Assembly (NCBI RefSeq): GCF_030718995.1
Contig: NZ_CP132204.1
Span: 930,001-994,000 of the forward strand
DNA: 64,000 nucleotides
From: Arthrobacter oryzae
GTDB taxonomy: Bacteria; Actinomycetota; Actinomycetes; Actinomycetales; Micrococcaceae
Reading direction: 5' to 3'
Every line of letters starts with the position of its first letter. Positions within the stretch are counted from its first letter, which is position 1. This document shows, piece after piece, positions 45,810-55,946 of this stretch. A program made the translations under genes and the position numbers. Under the pieces are notes generated by a model, which had not been told where the DNA came from, made no database searches, and was given only the letters and a program-made list of their open reading frames with translations.

Positions 45810-47711
45810 CTAGGTGGTGGGGACCCGCTTGCGTCCTGCGAGGATCGGCGCGAAGAACGCGGCGAGCTCCTCCGTCGCTGTCAGGGGCAGGACGTTCGCC
45901 ACGTACTGGTCGGGGCGGACAACCACCATCACGCCGCCCCGGTCGATGCCGCGCAGTTCGAAAATGTCCGACGCCGGAATGGTGCCATAGACCTTTTCCA
46001 GGTAGGTGAGCTTGAACGGCCCCACCTGGGGCTTGAAGACCGCCGGAACCGCGTTGAGGTCGATGTTCGTGTGGTCCTGCTGGTAGATCACCTTCACGTC
46101 GAACCAGGCGTCCGGGTCGGCGTCCGACGGCGTTGCGGCCAGCGGGGAGTCGGGCGCGGTGGCCAGCCACTCGGCAAGGTCGGTGGTGGGCGACTCCTGC
46201 CCCGGCGCGGCCCCGTCGGCGAAGACATAGATGCGCCAGCGGCCGTCCGCCGAGGCCTGGTGGCCGAGTTGCAGCGGGTTCGTGTCGCAGACCCGCACCG
46301 CCGGCGCCGACTTGAAGCGCTTGCCGATGGTGAATCCGGCGGCCAGTTCCTGGTGCGCCGGCTCGCCGATCAGCATCGAAGGAACGTACTGCGTCATGAA
46401 GCCGGCGGGGAATTCGGCCGTACTGACGTAGAAGTCCTCGAGCTCCGAGGGGGACGCGAATTCCTCGGGCTTCTTCGCCATGAGCGTGGACCACTCCTTG
46501 TCGAAGTCGATGAGGTTCTTCGCAATGACCTGGCGTTCGGCGGAGTAGGTGGACAGGAGGGATTCGGGGCTGCGGCCCTCCAGCACGTGGCCCAGCTTCC
46601 AGCCGATGTTGAAGCCGTCCTGCATGGAGACGTTCATGCCCTGGCCGGCCTTGGCGCTGTGCGTGTGGCACGCGTCGCCGGTGATGAACACGCGGGGCGT
46701 GCGGGTACCGAGCTCCTCCGGGCGGACGTCGTCAAACCTGTCGGTGAGGCGGTGGCCCACCTCGTAGACGCTGTGCCAGGCAACGTTGCGGACGTCGACG
46801 GTGTACGGGTGGACGATCGCGTTGGCTTTGGCGATGATCTGTTCGATGGAGGTCTTGCGGACGGCCCCGCGGTCGTCCGCGGCCACTTCGCCGAGGTCCA
46901 CGTACATGCGGAAGAGATGCCCGCCCTCGCGCGGGATCAGCAGGATGCTGCCGCCGTCGTGGGACTGGATGGCGCACTTGAGGCGGATGTCCGGGAAGTC
47001 CGTATTGGCAAGCACGTCCATAACGCCCCAGGCGTGGTTGGCCTGGTCGCCGGCCATGGTGCAGCCGATCGAGTCCCGCACCTTGCTGCGGGCACCGTCC
47101 GCGCCCACGACGTACTTGGCCCGGACAATACGTTCCCGGCCTTCGTCGGCGCCGGAGGTGTGGGCCAGCGTCACTGCAACGGGGTACTCCCCCTCGCCGA
47201 CGTGGAGCCCGCGGAACTCGTAGCCGTAGTCCGGCGCCATGCGGGTGGGGGCGTTCGCCATGACGTCGGCGAAGTAGTCGAGGACGCGGGCCTGGTTGAC
47301 GATCAGGTGCGGGAACTCACTGATTCCGTGCGGGTCGTCCAGGGTGCGGGCCGCACGGACGATGTTCGCGGGATTCTGCGGGTCCGGCTTCCAGAACGCC
47401 ATTTCGGTGATCCGGTAGGCCTCGGCAATGATCCGCTCGGCGAAGCCGAAGGCCTGGAAGGTTTCTACGCTGCGCGCCTGGATGCCGTCGGCCTGGCCGA
47501 TCTCGAGCCGCCCGGGGCGGCGCTCCACGATGCGGGTGGTGATGCCGGGGAACTGGGACAGCTGCGCGGCGGTGAGCATGCCCGCGGGCCCGGTACCCAC
47601 AATGAGAACGTCCACTTCGTCGGGAAGCTGCTCGGGACGGTTGATGCCGACGCCGGCGGCCGGCTGGACTCGCGGGTCACCGGATACGTAGCCGTGGTGG
47701 TGGAAATGCAC
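45810..47711 (-). CDS. FAD-dependent aromatic hydroxylase (phenol 2-monooxygenase/3-hydroxybenzoate 4-monooxygenase type)
   Basis: About 633 residues, class A flavoprotein monooxygenase. FAD motif VDVLIVGTGPAGMLTAAQL near residue 35, the GADGARSKVRDSIG (DG) motif, and GDACHTHSAKAGQGMNVSMQDGFNIGWKL. The C-terminal 200 residues form the thioredoxin-like domain of phenol hydroxylases. GTG at 47711 behind GAGGA is preferred; a GTG at 47723 adds four residues. It is divergent from the homoprotocatechuate operon, which lacks the two-component HpaBC, so this may be its ring hydroxylase, acting on 4- or 3-hydroxyphenylacetate. Family assignment is firm; substrate is inferred. Confidence 0.88.
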   Translation of the reverse strand: MHFHHHGYVSGDPRVQPAAGVGINRPEQLPDEVDVLIVGTGPAGMLTAAQLSQFPGITTRIVERRPGRLEIGQADGIQARSVETFQAFGFAERIIAEAYRITEMAFWKPDPQNPANIVRAARTLDDPHGISEFPHLIVNQARVLDYFADVMANAPTRMAPDYGYEFRGLHVGEGEYPVAVTLAHTSGADEGRERIVRAKYVVGADGARSKVRDSIGCTMAGDQANHAWGVMDVLANTDFPDIRLKCAIQSHDGGSILLIPREGGHLFRMYVDLGEVAADDRGAVRKTSIEQIIAKANAIVHPYTVDVRNVAWHSVYEVGHRLTDRFDDVRPEELGTRTPRVFITGDACHTHSAKAGQGMNVSMQDGFNIGWKLGHVLEGRSPESLLSTYSAERQVIAKNLIDFDKEWSTLMAKKPEEFASPSELEDFYVSTAEFPAGFMTQYVPSMLIGEPAHQELAAGFTIGKRFKSAPAVRVCDTNPLQLGHQASADGRWRIYVFADGAAPGQESPTTDLAEWLATAPDSPLAATPSDADPDAWFDVKVIYQQDHTNIDLNAVPAVFKPQVGPFKLTYLEKVYGTIPASDIFELRGIDRGGVMVVVRPDQYVANVLPLTATEELAAFFAPILAGRKRVPTT

Positions 47712-47757
47712 GGGGTTCCTCACTTCGTTGTGTGGCTGTCTATGGCCGTCAAATGTG

Positions 47758-47897: not shown

Positions 47898-47909
47898 ATC
47901 GTATACGAT
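47898..47909. promoter_or_regulatory. Perfect 12-bp palindrome, GntR/FCD operator candidate
   Basis: ATCGTATACGAT lies 24 bases before the TTG start of the homoprotocatechuate operon. The core TnGTATACnA fits operators of FadR-type GntR regulators, and one is encoded as the second gene of the operon. Confidence 0.6.
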
Positions 47910-47933: not shown

Positions 47934-49448
47934 TTGGAACAGGTCACCGACCACATCCTGGCCGCGGCCCGCAAGGTCATCGCGGTGCACATCAACTACC
48001 CCAGCCGGGCAGCCCAGCGCGGCCGCACCCCGGAGCAGCCCTCCTACTTCCTGAAGCCTTCGTCCTCCCTGGCCCTTGGCCCGGCGGACGCCCCGTCCAC
48101 GGTTGAACGCCCGGCCGGCTGCGAACTCCTCGGCTTCGAAGGGGAGATCGCCCTGATCATCGGCAAGCCGGCCCGCCGCGTCGGCATGGCGGACGCCTGG
48201 AGCCACGTCGAATGGGTCACGGCCAGCAACGACCTCGGCGTCTACGACCTTCGCTACGCGGACAAGGGCTCCAACCTCCGGTCCAAGGGCGGCGACGGCT
48301 TCACCCCCGTGGGCCCCGGACTGATCGCGGCAGACGCCGTCGACCCCGCACAGCTCCGCGTCCGCACCTGGCACAACGGCGATCTGGTGCAGGACGACAC
48401 CACCGAAGACCTGCTGTTCCCATTCGCCCGGCTCGTGGCGGACCTGTCCCAGCTCCTCACCCTCGAAGAGGGCGACATTATCCTGACCGGCACCCCGGCC
48501 GGTGCCTCCGTGGCCAAGCCCGGCGACGTCGTCGAGGTTGAAGTCAGCACCAGTACGACGACGGCGGGCGGCACTGCCGCCGGACTCACCACCGGCCGGC
48601 TGGTCACCCGGGTGACGGAAGGCACGACGCCGTTCGCCGACTTCGGTGCCCGGCCCAGGACCGATGACCTCCAGCGGGAGGAGGCCTACGGATCGCGCGA
48701 AGCCGCGGGCCTGGCTCCGGCGGCGCCCGCGGAAGCGCCGGCGTCGGTCCTGACCCCGGAGCTGAAGGCGAAGCTCGAAAGTGTCTGCACCGCCACCCTG
48801 TCCTCCCAGCTGCGCAAGCGCGGCCTGAACAACGTCAGCATCGACGGCCTCACGTCCACCCGCCCGGACAAGCGGATTGTGGGCCTGGCCCGGACGCTGC
48901 GCTACGTTCCCAACCGCGAGGATCTCTTCAAGACCCACGGCGGCGGCTTCAACGCCCAGAAGAAGGCCATCGATTCCGTCAACGAGGGCGAGATCCTGGT
49001 GATGGAGGCCCGCGGTGAAAAGGGCACCGGCACCATCGGCGACATCCTGGCCCTCCGCGCCCAGGTCCGCGGTGCCGCAGCCGTCATCACCGACGGCGGG
49101 GTCCGCGACTTCTCCGCGGTGGCGGCCATGGACATGCCCACCTACTATTCCAATCCCCACCCCGCGGTCCTGGGCCGCCGGCACATCCCTTGGGACACCG
49201 ACATCACCATCGCCTGCGGCGGCACCACCGTGCAGCCAGGGGACATCATCGTGGCGGACTCCGACGGCATCCTGGTCATCCCGCCTGCCCTCGCCGACGA
49301 GCTCGCGGACGATTCCATTGCGCAGGAACGCGAGGAAGTGTTCATCGCCGAAATGGTGCAGCAGGGCCACAGCGTGGACGGCCTGTACCCGCTGAATGCC
49401 GAATGGCGTGCCAAGTATGAAACATGGGACGGCCCGGCCCATGACTGA
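47934..49448 (+). CDS. Fumarylacetoacetate hydrolase-RraA fusion (HpaG-like position)
   Basis: A 504-residue two-domain protein. Residues about 1-230 are a FAH domain with metal ligands Glu69, Glu71 and Asp100 (GFEGEIAL, TASNDLGVYD) and GDIILTGTPAG; after an Ala/Pro linker, residues about 272-500 are an RraA/HMG-aldolase-like domain with TIGDILALRA and the Arg391-Asp392 pair in ITDGGVRD. TTG start behind GAGGAG. In E. coli the corresponding HpaG is two FAH halves that decarboxylate and isomerise the ring-cleavage product; here an RraA domain replaces one half. Some RraA-like proteins decarboxylate oxaloacetate, so it may do the decarboxylation. Confidence 0.88.
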   Translation: MEQVTDHILAAARKVIAVHINYPSRAAQRGRTPEQPSYFLKPSSSLALGPADAPSTVERPAGCELLGFEGEIALIIGKPARRVGMADAWSHVEWVTASNDLGVYDLRYADKGSNLRSKGGDGFTPVGPGLIAADAVDPAQLRVRTWHNGDLVQDDTTEDLLFPFARLVADLSQLLTLEEGDIILTGTPAGASVAKPGDVVEVEVSTSTTTAGGTAAGLTTGRLVTRVTEGTTPFADFGARPRTDDLQREEAYGSREAAGLAPAAPAEAPASVLTPELKAKLESVCTATLSSQLRKRGLNNVSIDGLTSTRPDKRIVGLARTLRYVPNREDLFKTHGGGFNAQKKAIDSVNEGEILVMEARGEKGTGTIGDILALRAQVRGAAAVITDGGVRDFSAVAAMDMPTYYSNPHPAVLGRRHIPWDTDITIACGGTTVQPGDIIVADSDGILVIPPALADELADDSIAQEREEVFIAEMVQQGHSVDGLYPLNAEWRAKYETWDGPAHD

Positions 49449-50136
49449 AACAGTGATGGCCGGCAGCAAATCAGAGCAGGCCTACGCCGCCGTCAAGGCA
49501 CGGATCGTGGACGGGACCTACTCCCCCGGCTTCCGGCTGGTGCTGGCGAAGATCGCCGAAGACCTGGGGTTCAGCGTGGTTCCGGTCCGCGAAGCCATCC
49601 GCCGGCTCGAAGCCGAGGGACTGGTCAAGTTCGAACGGAACGTCGGTGCCACCGTGTCCGGCATCGACCCCACCGAATACCTCTACACGATGCAGACGCT
49701 GAGCATCGTGGAGGGTGCCGCCACGGCGTTGTCCGCACCCCTCATCGGCGAAGCGGACATTGCCCGGGCGCGTGCCGTGAACGAGGAAATGCGCGAATGC
49801 CTGCAGCACTTCGACCCCGTCCGCTTCACCGCGCTGAACCAGGACTTCCACAGCGTCCTGTTCGAGCACTGCCCCAACCCGCACATCCTGGACCTCGTCC
49901 ACCGCGGCTGGAACCGGCTCGCCTCGCTGCGGTCCTCCACCTTCCGCTTCGTCCCCGGCCGCGCCCATGACTCGGTGGACGAACACGAAGCCATCCTGAA
50001 ACTCATCGAAACCGGGGCCGGCGCAGACCAGATCGAACGGGCGGCCCGGCTCCACCGCAGCGCCACCCTGGACGCCTACCTGGCCCAGGCGGCCCGCACT
50101 GATCTCGCTCCATCCCCGCAGCCCTCCCAGCAGTAA
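49441..50136 (+). CDS. GntR-family regulator, FCD (FadR-like) type
   Basis: A 231-residue GntR regulator: winged helix in residues about 10-75 (AYAAVKARIVDGTYSPGFRLVLAKIAEDLGFSVVPVREAIRRLEAEGLV) and an all-helical FCD domain with the metal/ligand residues in ALNQDFHSVLFEHCPN and SVDEHEAIL. ATG at 49441 overlaps the fusion gene by eight bases, so it is within the operon and likely autoregulated, probably acting at the palindrome at 47898-47909 and responding to a pathway intermediate. Confidence 0.92.
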   Translation: MTETVMAGSKSEQAYAAVKARIVDGTYSPGFRLVLAKIAEDLGFSVVPVREAIRRLEAEGLVKFERNVGATVSGIDPTEYLYTMQTLSIVEGAATALSAPLIGEADIARARAVNEEMRECLQHFDPVRFTALNQDFHSVLFEHCPNPHILDLVHRGWNRLASLRSSTFRFVPGRAHDSVDEHEAILKLIETGAGADQIERAARLHRSATLDAYLAQAARTDLAPSPQPSQQ

Positions 50137-50146
50137 GGAAAAAACA

Positions 50147-51658
50147 ATGACGTTCACTGCCGCAGAAGCCACCCACTACGTTCCGCAGGACCTCCCCACC
50201 CACATCCAGCACTACATCAACGGCGAATTCGTTGACTCCGTGGGCGGCAAGACCTTCGACGTCCTGGACCCGGTGTCCAACACCAACTACGCCACCGCCG
50301 CCGCCGGCCAGAAAGAGGACATCGACCTCGCCGTTGCCGCCGCCCGCGAAGCCTTCAAGAACGGCCCGTGGCCGAAGATGAAGCCGCGCGAACGTGCCCG
50401 CATCCTGAACAGGATTGCGGACGCCGTCGAAGCTCAGGAGGAGCGCCTGGCCGAACTCGAAACCTTCGACACCGGCCTGCCGATCACCCAGGCCAAGGGC
50501 CAGGCCCTGCGTGCCGCCGAGAACTTCCGGTTCTTCGCGGACCTGATCGTGGCCCAGTTCGACGACGCCATGAAGGTCCCCGGCTCGCAGATCAACTACG
50601 TGAACCGCAAGCCGATCGGCGTCGCGGGCCTCATCACCCCGTGGAACACCCCGTTCATGCTGGAGTCCTGGAAGCTCGCTCCGGCCCTGGCCACCGGCAA
50701 CACCGTGGTCCTCAAACCGGCCGAGTTCACCCCGTTGTCCGCTTCCCTCTGGGCGACCATTTTCAAGGACGCCGGCCTGCCTGACGGTGTGTTCAACCTG
50801 GTCAACGGCCTCGGCGAGGAAGCCGGCGACGCCCTGGTCAAGCACCCGGACGTACCGCTGATCTCCTTCACCGGCGAAACCACCACCGGGCAGACGATCT
50901 TCCGCAACGCCGCGGCCAACCTCAAGGGCCTCTCCATGGAGCTCGGCGGCAAGTCCCCCTGCGTCGTGTTCGCCGACGCCGACCTCGACGCCGCTATCGA
51001 CTCCGCACTGTTCGGCGTCTTCTCGCTCAATGGCGAACGCTGCACGGCCGGCTCCCGCATCCTGGTGGAACGCGCCATCTACGACGAGTTCTGCGAAAAG
51101 TACGCCGCCCGCGCCAAAAACATCGTGGTGGGCGATCCGCACGACCCCAAGACCCAGGTGGGCGCACTGGTCCACCCGGAGCACTTCGCCAAGGTGGCCT
51201 CCTATGTGGAGATCGGCAAGTCCGAAGGACGGCTCCTCGCAGGCGGCGGCCGTCCGGAAGGCCTCCCGGACGGCAACTACATCGCCCCCACCGTCTTCGC
51301 CGACGTCGCCCCGGACGCGCGGATCTTCCAGGAGGAGATCTTCGGCCCCGTCGTCGCCATCACCCCGTTCGAGAACGACGACGAGGCGCTGGCTTTGGCG
51401 AACAACACCAGGTACGGCCTGGCGGCCTACATCTGGACCCAGAACCTGACCCGCGCGCACAACTTCTCCCAGAACGTGGAGGCGGGCATGGTGTGGCTGA
51501 ACAGCCACAACGTCCGCGACCTCCGCACCCCGTTCGGCGGTGTCAAGGCCTCCGGCCTGGGCCACGAGGGAGGCTACCGCTCCATCGACTTCTACACCGA
51601 CCAGCAGGCCGTGCACATCACCCTCGGCACCGTCCACACCCCCAAGTTCGGCGCCTGA
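50147..51658 (+). CDS. hpaE: 5-carboxymethyl-2-hydroxymuconate semialdehyde dehydrogenase
   Basis: A 503-residue NAD-dependent aldehyde dehydrogenase with Glu265 (MELGGK), Cys299 (NGERCTAGS) and Asn167 (PWNTPF). The NRKPIGVAGLITPWNTPFMLESWKLAPAL segment and the VHTPKFG end are typical of HpaE. It oxidises the semialdehyde formed by the dioxygenase encoded next. ATG 10 bases after the GntR stop, with AAGGAAAA upstream. Operon position among the fusion gene, dioxygenase, hydratase and aldolase supports the assignment. Confidence 0.94.
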   Translation: MTFTAAEATHYVPQDLPTHIQHYINGEFVDSVGGKTFDVLDPVSNTNYATAAAGQKEDIDLAVAAAREAFKNGPWPKMKPRERARILNRIADAVEAQEERLAELETFDTGLPITQAKGQALRAAENFRFFADLIVAQFDDAMKVPGSQINYVNRKPIGVAGLITPWNTPFMLESWKLAPALATGNTVVLKPAEFTPLSASLWATIFKDAGLPDGVFNLVNGLGEEAGDALVKHPDVPLISFTGETTTGQTIFRNAAANLKGLSMELGGKSPCVVFADADLDAAIDSALFGVFSLNGERCTAGSRILVERAIYDEFCEKYAARAKNIVVGDPHDPKTQVGALVHPEHFAKVASYVEIGKSEGRLLAGGGRPEGLPDGNYIAPTVFADVAPDARIFQEEIFGPVVAITPFENDDEALALANNTRYGLAAYIWTQNLTRAHNFSQNVEAGMVWLNSHNVRDLRTPFGGVKASGLGHEGGYRSIDFYTDQQAVHITLGTVHTPKFGA

Positions 51659-51708: not shown

Positions 51709-52812
51709 ATGAACAGCCAAGTTTCACAGCACAACTTCATCCCCACCCCCTCCGTCCCGGCACCGGACATCGTCCGCTGCGCCTACATGGAAATCGTGGT
51801 CACGGACCTCGCCAAGTCCCGCGAGTTCTACGTGGACATGCTCGGCCTGCACGTCACCGAAGAAGACGAAAACAACATCTACCTGCGCACCCTCGAAGAG
51901 TTCATCCACCACAACCTGGTGCTGCGCAAGGGCCCCATCGCCGCCGTCGCCGCCTTCGCTTACCGGGTGAAGTCCCCCGCCGAAGTGGACGCCGCCGAGG
52001 CCTATTACAAGGAACTGGGCTGCCGCACCGAACGCCGCAAGGAAGGCTTCACCAAGGGAGTGGGTGACTCCGTCCGCGTCGAGGACCCGCTGGGCTTCCC
52101 CTATGAGTTCTTCTACGACGTGGAGCACGTGGAACGCCTCACCCAGCGCTACGACCTCTACTCCGCCGGCGAGCTGGTGCGGCTTGACCACTTCAACCAG
52201 GTGACCCCGGATGTTCCCCGCGGCCGCAAGTACCTGGAGGACCTCGGCTTTCGCGTCTCCGAGGACATCCAGGACTCCGACGGCGTCACGTACGCGGCCT
52301 GGATGCACCGCAAGCAGACGGTCCACGACACTGCCCTGACCGGCGGCAACGGCCCGCGCATGCACCACGTCGCCTTCGCCACCCACGAAAAGCACAACAT
52401 CATCCAGATCTGCGACAAGATGGGCGCCCTGCGGATCAGCGACCGGATCGAACGCGGCCCCGGCCGGCACGGCGTGTCCAACGCCTTCTACCTCTACATC
52501 CTGGACCCGGACGGCCACCGCGTGGAGATCTACACCCAGGACTACTACACCGGCGACCCCGACAACCCCACCATCACCTGGGACGTCCACGACAACCAGC
52601 GCCGCGACTGGTGGGGCAACCCGGTGGTCCCGTCCTGGTACACCGAGGCCTCCCTGGTCCTGGACCTGGACGGCAACCCGCAGCCCGTCATCATCCGCGA
52701 GGAAAAGTCCGAGATGGCTGTGACGGTGGGCGCCGACGGCTTCTCCTACACCCGCAAGGACGGCTCTCCCGAGGGTGACCGGACCGGTTTCAAGCTCGGG
52801 GCGCAGCTCTAG
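51709..52812 (+). CDS. hpaD: 3,4-dihydroxyphenylacetate 2,3-dioxygenase (homoprotocatechuate dioxygenase)
   Basis: A 367-residue extradiol ring-cleavage enzyme of the vicinal oxygen chelate superfamily. Metal ligands are His161 (VRLDHFNQV), His219 (RMHHVAFAT) and Glu272 (HRVEIYTQDY), offset by 5-6 from the known Brevibacterium fuscum and A. globiformis enzymes (His155, His214, Glu267). Those relatives use iron or manganese, and the metal here cannot be told from sequence. ATG at 51709 with AGAGAG. It opens homoprotocatechuate between carbons 2 and 3 to 5-carboxymethyl-2-hydroxymuconate semialdehyde. Confidence 0.96.
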   Translation: MNSQVSQHNFIPTPSVPAPDIVRCAYMEIVVTDLAKSREFYVDMLGLHVTEEDENNIYLRTLEEFIHHNLVLRKGPIAAVAAFAYRVKSPAEVDAAEAYYKELGCRTERRKEGFTKGVGDSVRVEDPLGFPYEFFYDVEHVERLTQRYDLYSAGELVRLDHFNQVTPDVPRGRKYLEDLGFRVSEDIQDSDGVTYAAWMHRKQTVHDTALTGGNGPRMHHVAFATHEKHNIIQICDKMGALRISDRIERGPGRHGVSNAFYLYILDPDGHRVEIYTQDYYTGDPDNPTITWDVHDNQRRDWWGNPVVPSWYTEASLVLDLDGNPQPVIIREEKSEMAVTVGADGFSYTRKDGSPEGDRTGFKLGAQL

Positions 52813-52814
52813 CC

Positions 52815-53600
52815 ATGCTGGATGCCACGACGATCGAGGCCATCGCGGACGAGCTGCTCGAGGCGGGCCGGAACCGCAAGCCGGTGCCCCGGCTAACGTC
52901 CCGCTACCCGGACATGACGGTGGAGGATTCCTATGCCGTGCAGCAGCTGTGGCGGAACCGCAACGAGGACGCCGGGCGGAAGCTTGTGGGCCGCAAGATC
53001 GGCCTCACGTCCAAGGCCATGCAGGCGGCCACCGGCATCACCGAACCGGACTACGGCGCCATCTTCGACGACATGGTGCTCGAGACCGGCTGCTCGGTGC
53101 AATGGGACAAGTACACGCATCCGCGGGTGGAGGTGGAGCTCGCCTTTGTCCTGAAAGACGCGCTCAAGGGCCCCGGCTGCACCATCTTCGACGTCCTGAA
53201 CGCCACCGACTACGTGGTTCCGGCCCTCGAGATCCTGGACTCCCGGATCGAGATGGAGGGCCGGACCATCGTGGACACCATCGCGGACAACGCCGCGATG
53301 GGCGCCATGGTGGTGGGCGGCCGCCCGGTGAAGCCCGACGCGGTGGACCTCCGCTGGGTGTCGGCCATTCTCTATAAAAACCAGACCGTGGAAGAGACAG
53401 GCGTGGCGGCCGGGGTCCTGGACCACCCGGCCAACGGCGTGCACTGGCTGGCCAACAAGATCGCCGCGCACGGGGACGGCATGAAGGCCGGGGACATCAT
53501 CCTGGCCGGGTCCTTCACCCGGCCGCTGTGGGTGTACAAGGGCGACACCGTGCACGCCGACTACGGACCCCTGGGAGTTGTCACATGCCGCTTCGAGTAG
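52815..53600 (+). CDS. hpaH: 2-oxo-hept-3-ene-1,7-dioate hydratase
   Basis: A 261-residue hydratase of the HpaH/MhpD/4-oxalocrotonate decarboxylase family: GRKIGLTSKAMQAATGITEPDYGAIFDDM, metal-binding glutamates in VEVELAFVLKD and ALEILDSR, and GDIILAGSFTRP. It adds water to the 2-oxo-heptenedioate made by decarboxylation. ATG two bases after the dioxygenase stop; its end overlaps the aldolase start by 16 bases. Length is typical (about 260). Confidence 0.95.
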   Translation: MLDATTIEAIADELLEAGRNRKPVPRLTSRYPDMTVEDSYAVQQLWRNRNEDAGRKLVGRKIGLTSKAMQAATGITEPDYGAIFDDMVLETGCSVQWDKYTHPRVEVELAFVLKDALKGPGCTIFDVLNATDYVVPALEILDSRIEMEGRTIVDTIADNAAMGAMVVGGRPVKPDAVDLRWVSAILYKNQTVEETGVAAGVLDHPANGVHWLANKIAAHGDGMKAGDIILAGSFTRPLWVYKGDTVHADYGPLGVVTCRFE

Positions 53601-54415
53601 AAGACACGTTCCGCGACGCCCTGCACCACCAAACGGGCGCTGCCGGCCGTCCCCTGGCCGGGATGTGGGTGTGCTCCGGCAGCCCGCTCATCGCCGAACT
53701 CTGCGCAGGCGCCGGCCTGGACTGGCTCCTGGTCGACGCCGAACACAGCCCCAACGGCCTCGAATCGATCCTCGCCCAGCTCCAGGCAATCAACGGCTAC
53801 CCGGTCCACACCCTGGTCCGGCCGCCGGTCAACGACACTGTGGTGATCAAGCAGTACCTTGACCTGGGCGTGCAGAACCTGCTCATCCCCATGGTCAACT
53901 CGGCGGCCGAGGCCGAAGCTGCGGTGGCTGCCACCCGCTACCCGCCGCACGGCGTCCGCGGCGTCGGCTCGGCGCTGGCCCGTGCCGCCCGCTGGAACCG
54001 GACGCCTGACTACCTCGCCCGGGCATCCGAGACCATCAGCGTCACCGTCCAGATCGAATCCACTGCCGCCGTTGACGCTGTTGAGGAGATCCTGGCGGTG
54101 GACGGAGTGGACGCCATCTTCCTGGGCCCCTCGGACCTCGCCGCCTCGATGGGCCTGCTGGGCCAGCAGGAACACCCGGAGGTGCGCGCCGCCGTCGAAC
54201 GCTGCCTGGCAGCCGCCACAGCGGCAGGGAAGCCGGGCGGCGTCAACGCCTTCAACCCCGACACGGCGAAGCACTATCTGGACAGCGGCGCCAAGTTCAT
54301 CCTGGTGGGGGCCGACGTCGCCATCCTGGCGAGAGGCTCCGAAGCCCTCGCCTCCCAATACATCACCACCCACCACATCAAGCCCGCCGACGGCGGCACA
54401 CCGGCCAGCTACTGA
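53585..54415 (+). CDS. hpaI: 4-hydroxy-2-oxo-heptane-1,7-dioate aldolase
   Basis: A 276-residue class II pyruvate aldolase of the HpcH/HpaI family. His54 (VDAEHSPNG) and Arg79 (LVRPPVND) match the active-site pair of HpaI; metal-ligand motifs are VQIES and GPSDLAASMG. It splits the substrate into pyruvate and succinate semialdehyde, the latter taken up by the next gene product. ATG at 53585 lies inside the hydratase gene end. Confidence 0.95.
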   Translation: MPLRVEDTFRDALHHQTGAAGRPLAGMWVCSGSPLIAELCAGAGLDWLLVDAEHSPNGLESILAQLQAINGYPVHTLVRPPVNDTVVIKQYLDLGVQNLLIPMVNSAAEAEAAVAATRYPPHGVRGVGSALARAARWNRTPDYLARASETISVTVQIESTAAVDAVEEILAVDGVDAIFLGPSDLAASMGLLGQQEHPEVRAAVERCLAAATAAGKPGGVNAFNPDTAKHYLDSGAKFILVGADVAILARGSEALASQYITTHHIKPADGGTPASY

Positions 54416-54440: not shown

Positions 54441-55946
54441 ATGACAGTCACTTCTGCGCTGCCCCCTGCCCTTTCCCCGGAACGCGAAGCCGCGCTGATC
54501 GCTTCCGTCCCCACCGGCCTGCTGATCGGCGGGCACTGGGTGGAAGCGTCCGACGGCGGCACGTTCGACGTGCACGATCCCGCCACCGGGGAGGTGCTCG
54601 CCACCCTGGCGTCCGCCACCAGTGCGGACGCCGTCGCAGCGCTCGACGCAGCCGATGCCGCCCAGTCCTCCTGGGCGCGGACCGCGCCGCGGGTGCGGGC
54701 CGAAATCCTGCGCCGGGCCTTTGACCTGGTCACCGAACGCGCCGAGGACTTCGCCCTGCTGATGACCCTGGAAATGGGCAAGCCCCTGGCCGAAGCCCGC
54801 GGCGAGGTGAGCTACGGTGCCGAGTTCCTGCGCTGGTTCTCCGAGGAAACGGTCCGCGACTACGGCCGCTACCTCACCACCCCTGAGGGCAGGAACAAGA
54901 TCCTGGTCCAGCACAAGCCGGTGGGACCGTGCCTGCTCATCACGCCATGGAATTTCCCGCTGGCCATGGCCACCCGCAAGGTTGCCCCCGCCATCGCCGC
55001 GGGCTGCACCATGGTCCTCAAACCCGCCAAGCTCACCCCGCTCACCGCGCAGTACTTCGCACAGACCATGCTCGACGCCGGCCTGCCCGCCGGCGTCCTG
55101 AACGTCGTCTCCTCCGCCAGTGCCTCCGGGATCTCCGGTCCGCTGCTGGCAGACCCCCGCCTGCGGAAGGTCTCCTTTACCGGCTCCACCCCGGTGGGCA
55201 AGCGGCTCATGGCCGACGCCGCGCAGAACGTCCTGCGGACCTCGATGGAGCTCGGCGGCAACGCACCGTTCATCGTGTTCGAGGACGCGGACCTGGACAA
55301 GGCCGTTGAAGGTGCCATGGCGGCCAAGATGCGGAACATGGGCGAGGCCTGCACAGCCGCCAACCGGTTCCTGGTCCAGGAATCCGTCGCCGCCGAATTC
55401 ACGCAGAAGTTCGCCGCAGCCATGGGAGCCCTGGCCACCGGCCGCGGCACCGACCCCGCCACCCAGGTGGGACCGCTCATCGACGCCGGCGCCCGGGACG
55501 ACGTGCACGCGCTGGTGGCCGCCGCCGTCGACGCCGGAGCGGTTGCCGTGACCGGCGGCGCACCGGTGGACGGGCCCGGCTACTTCTACCCGCCCACGGT
55601 GCTGGGAAACGTCCCGAACGACGCCGACATCCTGGGCCAGGAAATCTTCGGGCCAGTCGCCCCGGTGACCACGTTCAGCACCGAGGAGGACGCGATCCGG
55701 CTGGCTAACGCCACCGAGTACGGCCTCGCCTCCTACCTCTACAGCCGCGACTTCAACCGGCTCCTGCGCGTGGCCGAGCAGATCGAATTCGGCATGGTGG
55801 GATTCAATGCCGGCATCATCTCCAACGCCGCAGCACCCTTCGGCGGTGTCAAACAGTCCGGGCTGGGCCGCGAAGGCGGCTCCGAAGGAATCGCCGAATA
55901 CACCACCACCCAGTACATCGGCATCGCGGACCCCTACGCCGGCTGA
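54441..55946 (+). CDS. gabD: Succinate-semialdehyde dehydrogenase
   Basis: A 501-residue NAD(P)-dependent aldehyde dehydrogenase resembling GabD: Glu270 (MELGGNAPF), Cys304 (GEACTAANRF), Asn171 (PWNFPLAM) and the TEYGLASYLYSRD and PFGGVKQSGLGREGG motifs. ATG behind TAAGGA, 25 bases after the aldolase stop. It ends the homoprotocatechuate operon by converting succinate semialdehyde to succinate. No terminator hairpin is obvious before the next gene. Confidence 0.94.
   Translation: MTVTSALPPALSPEREAALIASVPTGLLIGGHWVEASDGGTFDVHDPATGEVLATLASATSADAVAALDAADAAQSSWARTAPRVRAEILRRAFDLVTERAEDFALLMTLEMGKPLAEARGEVSYGAEFLRWFSEETVRDYGRYLTTPEGRNKILVQHKPVGPCLLITPWNFPLAMATRKVAPAIAAGCTMVLKPAKLTPLTAQYFAQTMLDAGLPAGVLNVVSSASASGISGPLLADPRLRKVSFTGSTPVGKRLMADAAQNVLRTSMELGGNAPFIVFEDADLDKAVEGAMAAKMRNMGEACTAANRFLVQESVAAEFTQKFAAAMGALATGRGTDPATQVGPLIDAGARDDVHALVAAAVDAGAVAVTGGAPVDGPGYFYPPTVLGNVPNDADILGQEIFGPVAPVTTFSTEEDAIRLANATEYGLASYLYSRDFNRLLRVAEQIEFGMVGFNAGIISNAAAPFGGVKQSGLGREGGSEGIAEYTTTQYIGIADPYAG

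Follow-up and report, generated by a model that had tools for sequence, protein, structure and literature searches.

A conserved FAH-RraA fusion protein in the HpaG position of actinomycete homoprotocatechuate operons, a candidate for the combined work of HpaF and HpaG

The window, that is the whole stretch of DNA analysed (64,000 nucleotides), comprises bases 930001-994000 of the Arthrobacter oryzae genome, a single contig of 4.65 Mb. At 47934..49448 on the forward strand lies one open frame of 504 codons (504 aa; TTG start, with a Shine-Dalgarno-like GAGGAG upstream) that carries two domains, FAH first and then RraA. Residues 14-209 (47973..48560) match Pfam PF01557 FAA_hydrolase (E 3e-46), residues 286-448 (48789..49277) match PF03737 RraA-like (E 1.1e-30), and the interval separating both Pfam matches is a linker of residues 210-285 (48561..48788). 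The NCBIfam model NF009399/PRK12764.1 spans residues 2-500 with 890 bits (cut-off 444), which places the fusion in this family as a full-length match over both domains, with nothing structurally different. The architecture is not new to databases, being already a curated NCBIfam family, one labelled generically as "fumarylacetoacetate hydrolase family protein" and given no function. In one further family membership comparison the fusion scored 82.9 of 179 and 76.1 of 304.5. An AlphaFold model built from 43 rows gave a mean pLDDT of 60.4, with residues 349-435 below 50. A frameshift or a chance joining of two genes was ruled out, since the fusion is one open frame in all 116 aligned rows and its FAH domain has a single clade of origin. 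The first-pass annotation had described one FAH domain and one RraA domain on a single chain, encoded by the first gene of an hpa operon, and this description is borne out by the open frame, Pfam and NCBIfam.

From the Pfam and NCBIfam matches, the genes that follow the fusion on the same strand encode, in order, GntR, HpaE, HpaD, HpaH, HpaI and SSADH. The GntR/FCD regulator (49441..50136) starts within the fusion gene, overlapping its stop by 8 bases. It is followed by HpaE, the CHMS dehydrogenase (50147..51658; TIGR02299, 669 bits, cut-off 638), HpaD, the homoprotocatechuate 2,3-dioxygenase (51709..52812; TIGR02295, 446 bits, cut-off 321), and HpaH, the hydratase of 2-oxohept-3-ene-1,7-dioate (OHED; 52815..53600; TIGR02312, 373 bits, cut-off 351.5). 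The last two assignments are to an HpaI-like aldolase (53585..54415), whose best match, TIGR02311 at 316 bits, lies below the cut-off of 369, and to a succinate-semialdehyde dehydrogenase-like protein (54441..55946, start codon picked by eye), whose best match, TIGR01780 at 553 bits, lies below the cut-off of 646. Diverging from the operon, in the place of HpaBC, is a gene on the reverse strand (45810..47723) for a phenol 2-monooxygenase-type single-component FAD monooxygenase (NF006144, 1056 bits, cut-off 560). This gene was matched in 60 of 83 fusion loci, and HpaB in none of them; the substrate of the monooxygenase may be 3- or 4-hydroxyphenylacetate. Ahead of the fusion lies the palindrome ATCGTATACGAT (47898..47909), a candidate operator. 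Exact 10-14 bp versions of it occur 82 times across 116 upstream regions, and 83 of these 116 related, non-independent sequences contain the central GTATAC (mononucleotide-shuffle mean 2.5). It is probably the operator of the adjacent FCD-type GntR regulator.

Relatives were found by scanning genome contigs with the fusion protein itself, and the best 80 of 179 were kept. Among these best 80, hpaE follows the fusion in every case, and HpaD, HpaH and HpaI are all present in 75; the other five have fetched stretches without at least one of the three, and in four of these five the contig is short or ends early. Since the query for this set had been the fusion, an independent sample was chosen via HpaD, which was detected in 32 of 394 Actinomycetes genomes. 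The fusion lies in the fetched stretch, beside hpaE/hpaD, in 31 of the 32. In the sole exception (locus L225, genome G681) the hpaE match does not begin until residue 171 and the 20 kb contain no fusion; this hpa locus looks cut or rearranged and is possibly decayed. A wider phylum sample of 396 genomes, which has seven genomes in common with the class sample, contained 13 with HpaD over the cut-off. The full fusion was found in eight genomes of this sample, beside HpaD in seven of them; in the eighth, G338, it lies on another contig, where its neighbour is an HpaE-like gene. Five HpaD genomes of the phylum sample have no fusion: four encode a single FAH of HpaG-C type without RraA, and in the fifth, G109, RraA is free-standing, shares 57% identity with that of the fusion and adjoins DapA-family and HpaD-like genes in a stretch with no labelled FAH. 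The fusion is also carried by a Rhodococcus plasmid, an Embleya plasmid and pTC2 of P. aurescens TC1. It is a conserved protein, and its association with hpa genes is more than chance. The HpaG position proposed for it by the first-pass annotation holds across Actinomycetes, and the search of actinobacterial HPA operons suggested there found the same architecture in both sets, among the HpaD genomes and beside hpaE among the best relatives.

HpaF, the isomerase acting before HpaG, had been overlooked in the first-pass annotation and is absent as well. A profile search with PF02962 found no HpaF in the A. oryzae genome, a result that can be trusted because the same model found it in all four proteobacterial plasmids with hpa operons used as positive control. 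At E 0.01, none of 83 fusion loci contained HpaF-like sequence, HpaF was present in six of six proteobacterial hpa loci (six of seven non-actinobacterial loci), and none was found at the Deinococcus hpa locus. Searched as whole genomes, the 13 with HpaD in the phylum sample gave no PF02962 match, and the 32 of the class sample gave one, a weak match of 40 bits on a different contig in G566. In the Nitratireductor hpa locus (L244), tblastn revealed a stretch resembling HpaF (51.6 bits) that carries no annotation. For HpaG, the best matches elsewhere in the A. oryzae genome were 179.8 bits for the HpaG-C half (TIGR02303, cut-off 276.4) and 108.6 bits for the HpaG-N half (TIGR02305, cut-off 228.65). 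A complete hpaG elsewhere in the genome, which the first-pass annotation had named as counting against its reading, was thus looked for and rejected, since no FAH reaches either cut-off. With neither HpaF nor HpaG halves, the conversion of 5-carboxymethyl-2-hydroxymuconate (CHM, the HpaE product) to OHED, the HpaH substrate, is left, as far as this operon goes, to the fusion, which probably covers it. The HpaF step may be served otherwise, because a 4-OT-type tautomerase gene at 2617677, far from the operon, could serve as HpaF, and because CHM is said, in excerpts of an Acinetobacter study (PMC12718150), to isomerise slowly unaided.

Catalytic residues were counted over 116 fusion proteins, one of which (L206) starts at a contig edge, leaving 115 for E69 and E71. 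These two glutamates are identical in 115 of 115, D100 and K118 in 116 of 116, and K41 is likewise invariant wherever covered; the ExE and Asp metal ligands and the conserved Lys make the domain a member of the FAH superfamily. In the second domain D370-x20-R391-D392 is identical in all 116 proteins, and this set, which we take to be the catalytic one of RraA-like class II aldolases/decarboxylases, assigns the domain to that group. D370 (49041-49043) and R391-D392 (49104-49109) were located by alignment to PDB 3noj. The earlier statement that the metal-site residues of both domains are intact is therefore confirmed wherever these are covered. The lid His of the H-x-x-E dyad, typical of hydrolase/decarboxylase-type FAHs, is lacking, R25 standing in its place in all 115 covering rows. 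Compared with HpaG-C, the FAH domain differs at two positions, with R25 for the lid His and Y104 for the Arg of "RD". Among 22 sister FAH rows, Arg stands at 25 and His at 104.

In a tree of 62 FAH domains, the 23 fusion rows form one clade (support 97/92) which adjoins free actinobacterial FAHs and lies outside both HpaG-C and HpaG-N; the 22 sister rows were picked by similarity search with NF009399, and the sister grouping may partly reflect this picking. From its position in the tree, the FAH domain is no HpaG half and belongs to another, actinobacterial FAH branch. The idea that it is an HpaG half which kept one partner is contradicted by this branch and by the altered catalytic positions. 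Free FAHs of the sister branch (L227-L240) cluster with HpaE-like dehydrogenases and have no RraA matches; one of these loci (L234) also encodes a protein remotely related to class III dioxygenases (TIGR02298, at 119.8 bits below the cut-off of 315.95). The candidate explanation that loss of the His and Arg means loss of decarboxylation is weakened by the 22 sister rows, which are alike and stand in other catabolic clusters without RraA matches. Excerpts on FAHD1 (PMC8398924) describe a His-Glu dyad that holds water, a Lys-Asp-Lys set that ketonises the bound enol, and Gln109 which, with Arg106, steers decarboxylation; its authors caution that structure is no proof of which residues are key. 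Fusion residues were mapped to FAHD1 numbers by motif and not by computed alignment.

The first-pass annotation took two FAH halves as the baseline, and this is not general. One FAH gene, HpaF and no RraA were found in the fetched stretches of the Aminobacter, Ruegeria, Rhizobium and Nitratireductor hpa clusters. The Deinococcus cluster has one FAH gene, no RraA in the fetched stretch and no detectable HpaF, and in four other actinobacterial genomes a single FAH of HpaG-C type occurs, RraA is missing from the stretch and HpaF from the whole genome. Because such clusters exist, an FAH is probably capable of decarboxylation by itself, RraA does not have to stand in for a missing half, and the notion that two halves are normal and one was lost is weakened. 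A different actinobacterial hpa cluster (L172-L175) was also observed, with HpaC, a DapA-family gene, a single HpaG-C-type FAH, HpaE, HpaB and HpaD; GntR is labelled in three of the four, and their stretches gave no match to HpaF, HpaH, HpaI or RraA.

Downstream of the fusion, the gene content varies. Among the 32 fusion loci of the HpaD genomes, 23 have HpaH and HpaI, nine (in eight genomes) have a DapA-family gene, and none has both. Of 31 fusion genomes, 8 have the DapA-family gene in the place of HpaH and HpaI (L207, L217-L224), as does the Embleya plasmid locus (L131), and G553 and G694, which belong to one genus, differ in this respect. NCBIfam names a DapA relative, TIGR02313, as an aldolase of the HpaI step. 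Against its cut-off of 396.7, the proteins of L217 (326.6 bits) and L176 (312 bits) fall below and that of L175 (405.8 bits) above; since each of the three exceeds the cut-off for ordinary dapA as well, the name is uncertain. The gene is likely to encode a hydratase-aldolase. If it acts on OHED as such, OHED would be the fusion product in both variants, and the observation that the downstream genes are swapped while the fusion stays fits this.

Several known systems offer comparisons. HpaG/HpcE of E. coli (PDB 1gtt, 1i7o), the bifunctional OPET decarboxylase/HHDD isomerase, shares with the fusion its pathway and operon place, the FAH fold and a two-domain chain. The fusion differs in having only one FAH, from another branch, an RraA second domain and no HpaF beside it. 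It falls below all HpaG profiles (TIGR02303, 136.4 of 276.4; TIGR02305, 89 of 228.65; PRK15203, 116 of 811 bits) and, with a single FAA_hydrolase match, it does not have the two FAH halves, fused or side by side, of an HpaG. The HMG/CHA aldolase and oxaloacetate decarboxylase of P. putida F1 (PDB 3noj) shares by alignment the RraA fold and the D-x20-R-D set, R391-D392 aligning with its Arg-Asp and R391 being the counterpart of its Arg123; the fusion differs in lying below the NF006731 and TIGR02798 cut-offs, in being fused and in its predicted substrate. According to excerpts of PMC5065237, this aldolase decarboxylates oxaloacetate, and R123K cuts kcat 181-fold. FlDet of Flavobacterium, as described in excerpts of PMC8563752, is an RraA-family dehydratase/decarboxylase whose substrate, a 2-keto-3-deoxy sugar diacid, loses water and CO2, the enzyme likewise taking the distal carboxylate off a 2-oxo acid, and is not affected by EDTA. 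It is likened to the fusion by description and not by sequence, and differs in its sugar diacid substrate and in being free-standing. These two enzymes supply precedent for the earlier remark that RraA-like enzymes can decarboxylate keto acids. Among sequences with a deposited structure, the RraA domain matches best (E 3.8e-35) to RraAS2 of Streptomyces coelicolor (PDB 5x15), which is free-standing, deposited as a putative transferase and, going by the title of a paper, studied as an RNase E inhibitor relative. Taken together, the idea of a domain swap stands as regards position, metal sites and the lack of an HpaG half elsewhere, and falls short in that RraA is not simply the missing half and HpaF is absent too.

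The place of the fusion in the middle of the HPA pathway we regard as highly probable. CHM to OPET and HHDD to OHED both ketonise a 2-hydroxy-2,4-dienoate to a 2-oxo-3-enoate, and OPET to HHDD is a vinylogous decarboxylation. Since two of the steps share the same chemistry, one tautomerase and one decarboxylase suffice. From the observed architecture, conservation, operon position and absence of HpaF and HpaG halves we infer domain roles and catalytic steps, in which the fusion would take CHM to OHED and so combine the functions of HpaF and HpaG, two domains serving three steps. The FAH domain, with the Mg and Lys-Asp-Lys set kept and the lid His and RD Arg lost, would be the tautomerase. In the RraA domain, the D-x20-R-D Mg site would hold OPET by its 2-oxo acid end, and the carboxylate at C5 would be lost in a decarboxylation of the vinylogous beta-keto acid type. 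Decarboxylation is given to RraA because the FAH residues are altered and the RraA family offers decarboxylase precedents; this division of labour is tentative, with a chance a little short of even, and which domain decarboxylates is more than sequence can settle. Several findings count against it: FAHs seem to be sufficient by themselves in other clusters, the altered FAH residues are common to sister FAHs near HpaE-like dehydrogenases without RraA match, and FlDet is indifferent to EDTA. HpaF is also lacking where RraA occurs, a pattern equally in keeping with RraA standing in for HpaF.

The roles may be reversed, FAH decarboxylating OPET as the HpaG C-terminal half does and RraA acting as the tautomerase in place of HpaF and the HpaG-N half. 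HpaF is absent wherever the fusion is and present in the six proteobacterial loci, which have no RraA; the FAH metal ligands are kept, the fusion FAH scores higher against HpaG-C than against HpaG-N (136 versus 89 bits), and the N half of E. coli HpaG has no ExE pair. The HMG/CHA aldolase, moreover, exchanges pyruvate methyl protons quickly, an enolisation (excerpts of PMC5065237). We nevertheless consider this reversal rather unlikely, as the FAH lies outside the HpaG-C branch and has lost its His and Arg, no RraA-family tautomerase was found in the literature examined, and clusters with neither HpaF nor RraA show that HpaF loss needs no substitute.

It is also conceivable, and in our judgement unlikely, that FAH alone does the HpaG work and that RraA performs a side reaction, such as oxaloacetate decarboxylation or aldol cleavage of a by-product, and was fused for flux or assembly. 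The single-FAH clusters elsewhere would agree with this, as would free relatives of the same subfamily in sugar-acid-like clusters (L190; PRK08245, 342 bits) and the RraA relatives that are aldolases with side decarboxylase activity (excerpts of PMC5065237). A mere side reaction sits poorly with a fusion kept in nearly all HpaD-bearing Actinomycetes genomes and an RraA catalytic set that never varies, and the operon already holds an aldolase gene. Finally, RraA could be a structural or regulatory remnant beside an FAH half that does everything. Regulatory RraA-fold proteins exist, going by the titles of papers, and the structure model is shallow. The RNase E inhibitor RraA has no known catalysis. 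D370, R391 and D392 are nevertheless unchanged throughout, and RNase regulators need not keep this set, which makes a remnant very improbable.

In excerpts of PMC3534580, Arthrobacter sp. Rue61a is reported to grow on 4-hydroxyphenylacetate and homoprotocatechuate, and P. aurescens TC1, which carries the fusion operon, is named as its closest sequenced relative. The C. aurimucosum cluster has the same gene order (hpaGLEDHI plus gabD2), its first gene being called hpaG and the hpaF function being placed elsewhere in the chromosome (excerpts of PMC2830990). In the open-licence literature, we found no paper joining FAH with RraA and none joining 4-hydroxyphenylacetate with RraA. For HpaG itself, the Acinetobacter pathway study (JBC 2025; excerpts of PMC12718150) calls the division of work between the two domains still ambiguous; it also reports a complex of OPETD with HHDDI. 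A natural partner swap to an unrelated fold, combined with HpaF loss, offers a clean handle on this ambiguity, each domain being assayable alone.

We hold it possible, with appreciable doubt, that non-orthologous parts joined in one chimera have taken over from both HpaF and HpaG: a Mg enzyme of RraA fold as the OPET decarboxylase, and an FAH domain, re-tooled and without the canonical His/Arg, as the tautomerase of CHM and HHDD, giving a four-protein route. If true, this actinomycete route, in the variant without HpaH and HpaI, would consist of HpaD, HpaE, the fusion and a DapA-type hydratase-aldolase. The result would give a name to an NCBIfam family of generic label found across Actinomycetes, and would correct the annotations "dimethylmenaquinone methyltransferase" (P. 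aurescens TC1 plasmid record) and "RraA regulator". For homoprotocatechuate, a tyrosine-derived aromatic acid, it would mean one two-part enzyme where other bacteria use two or three.
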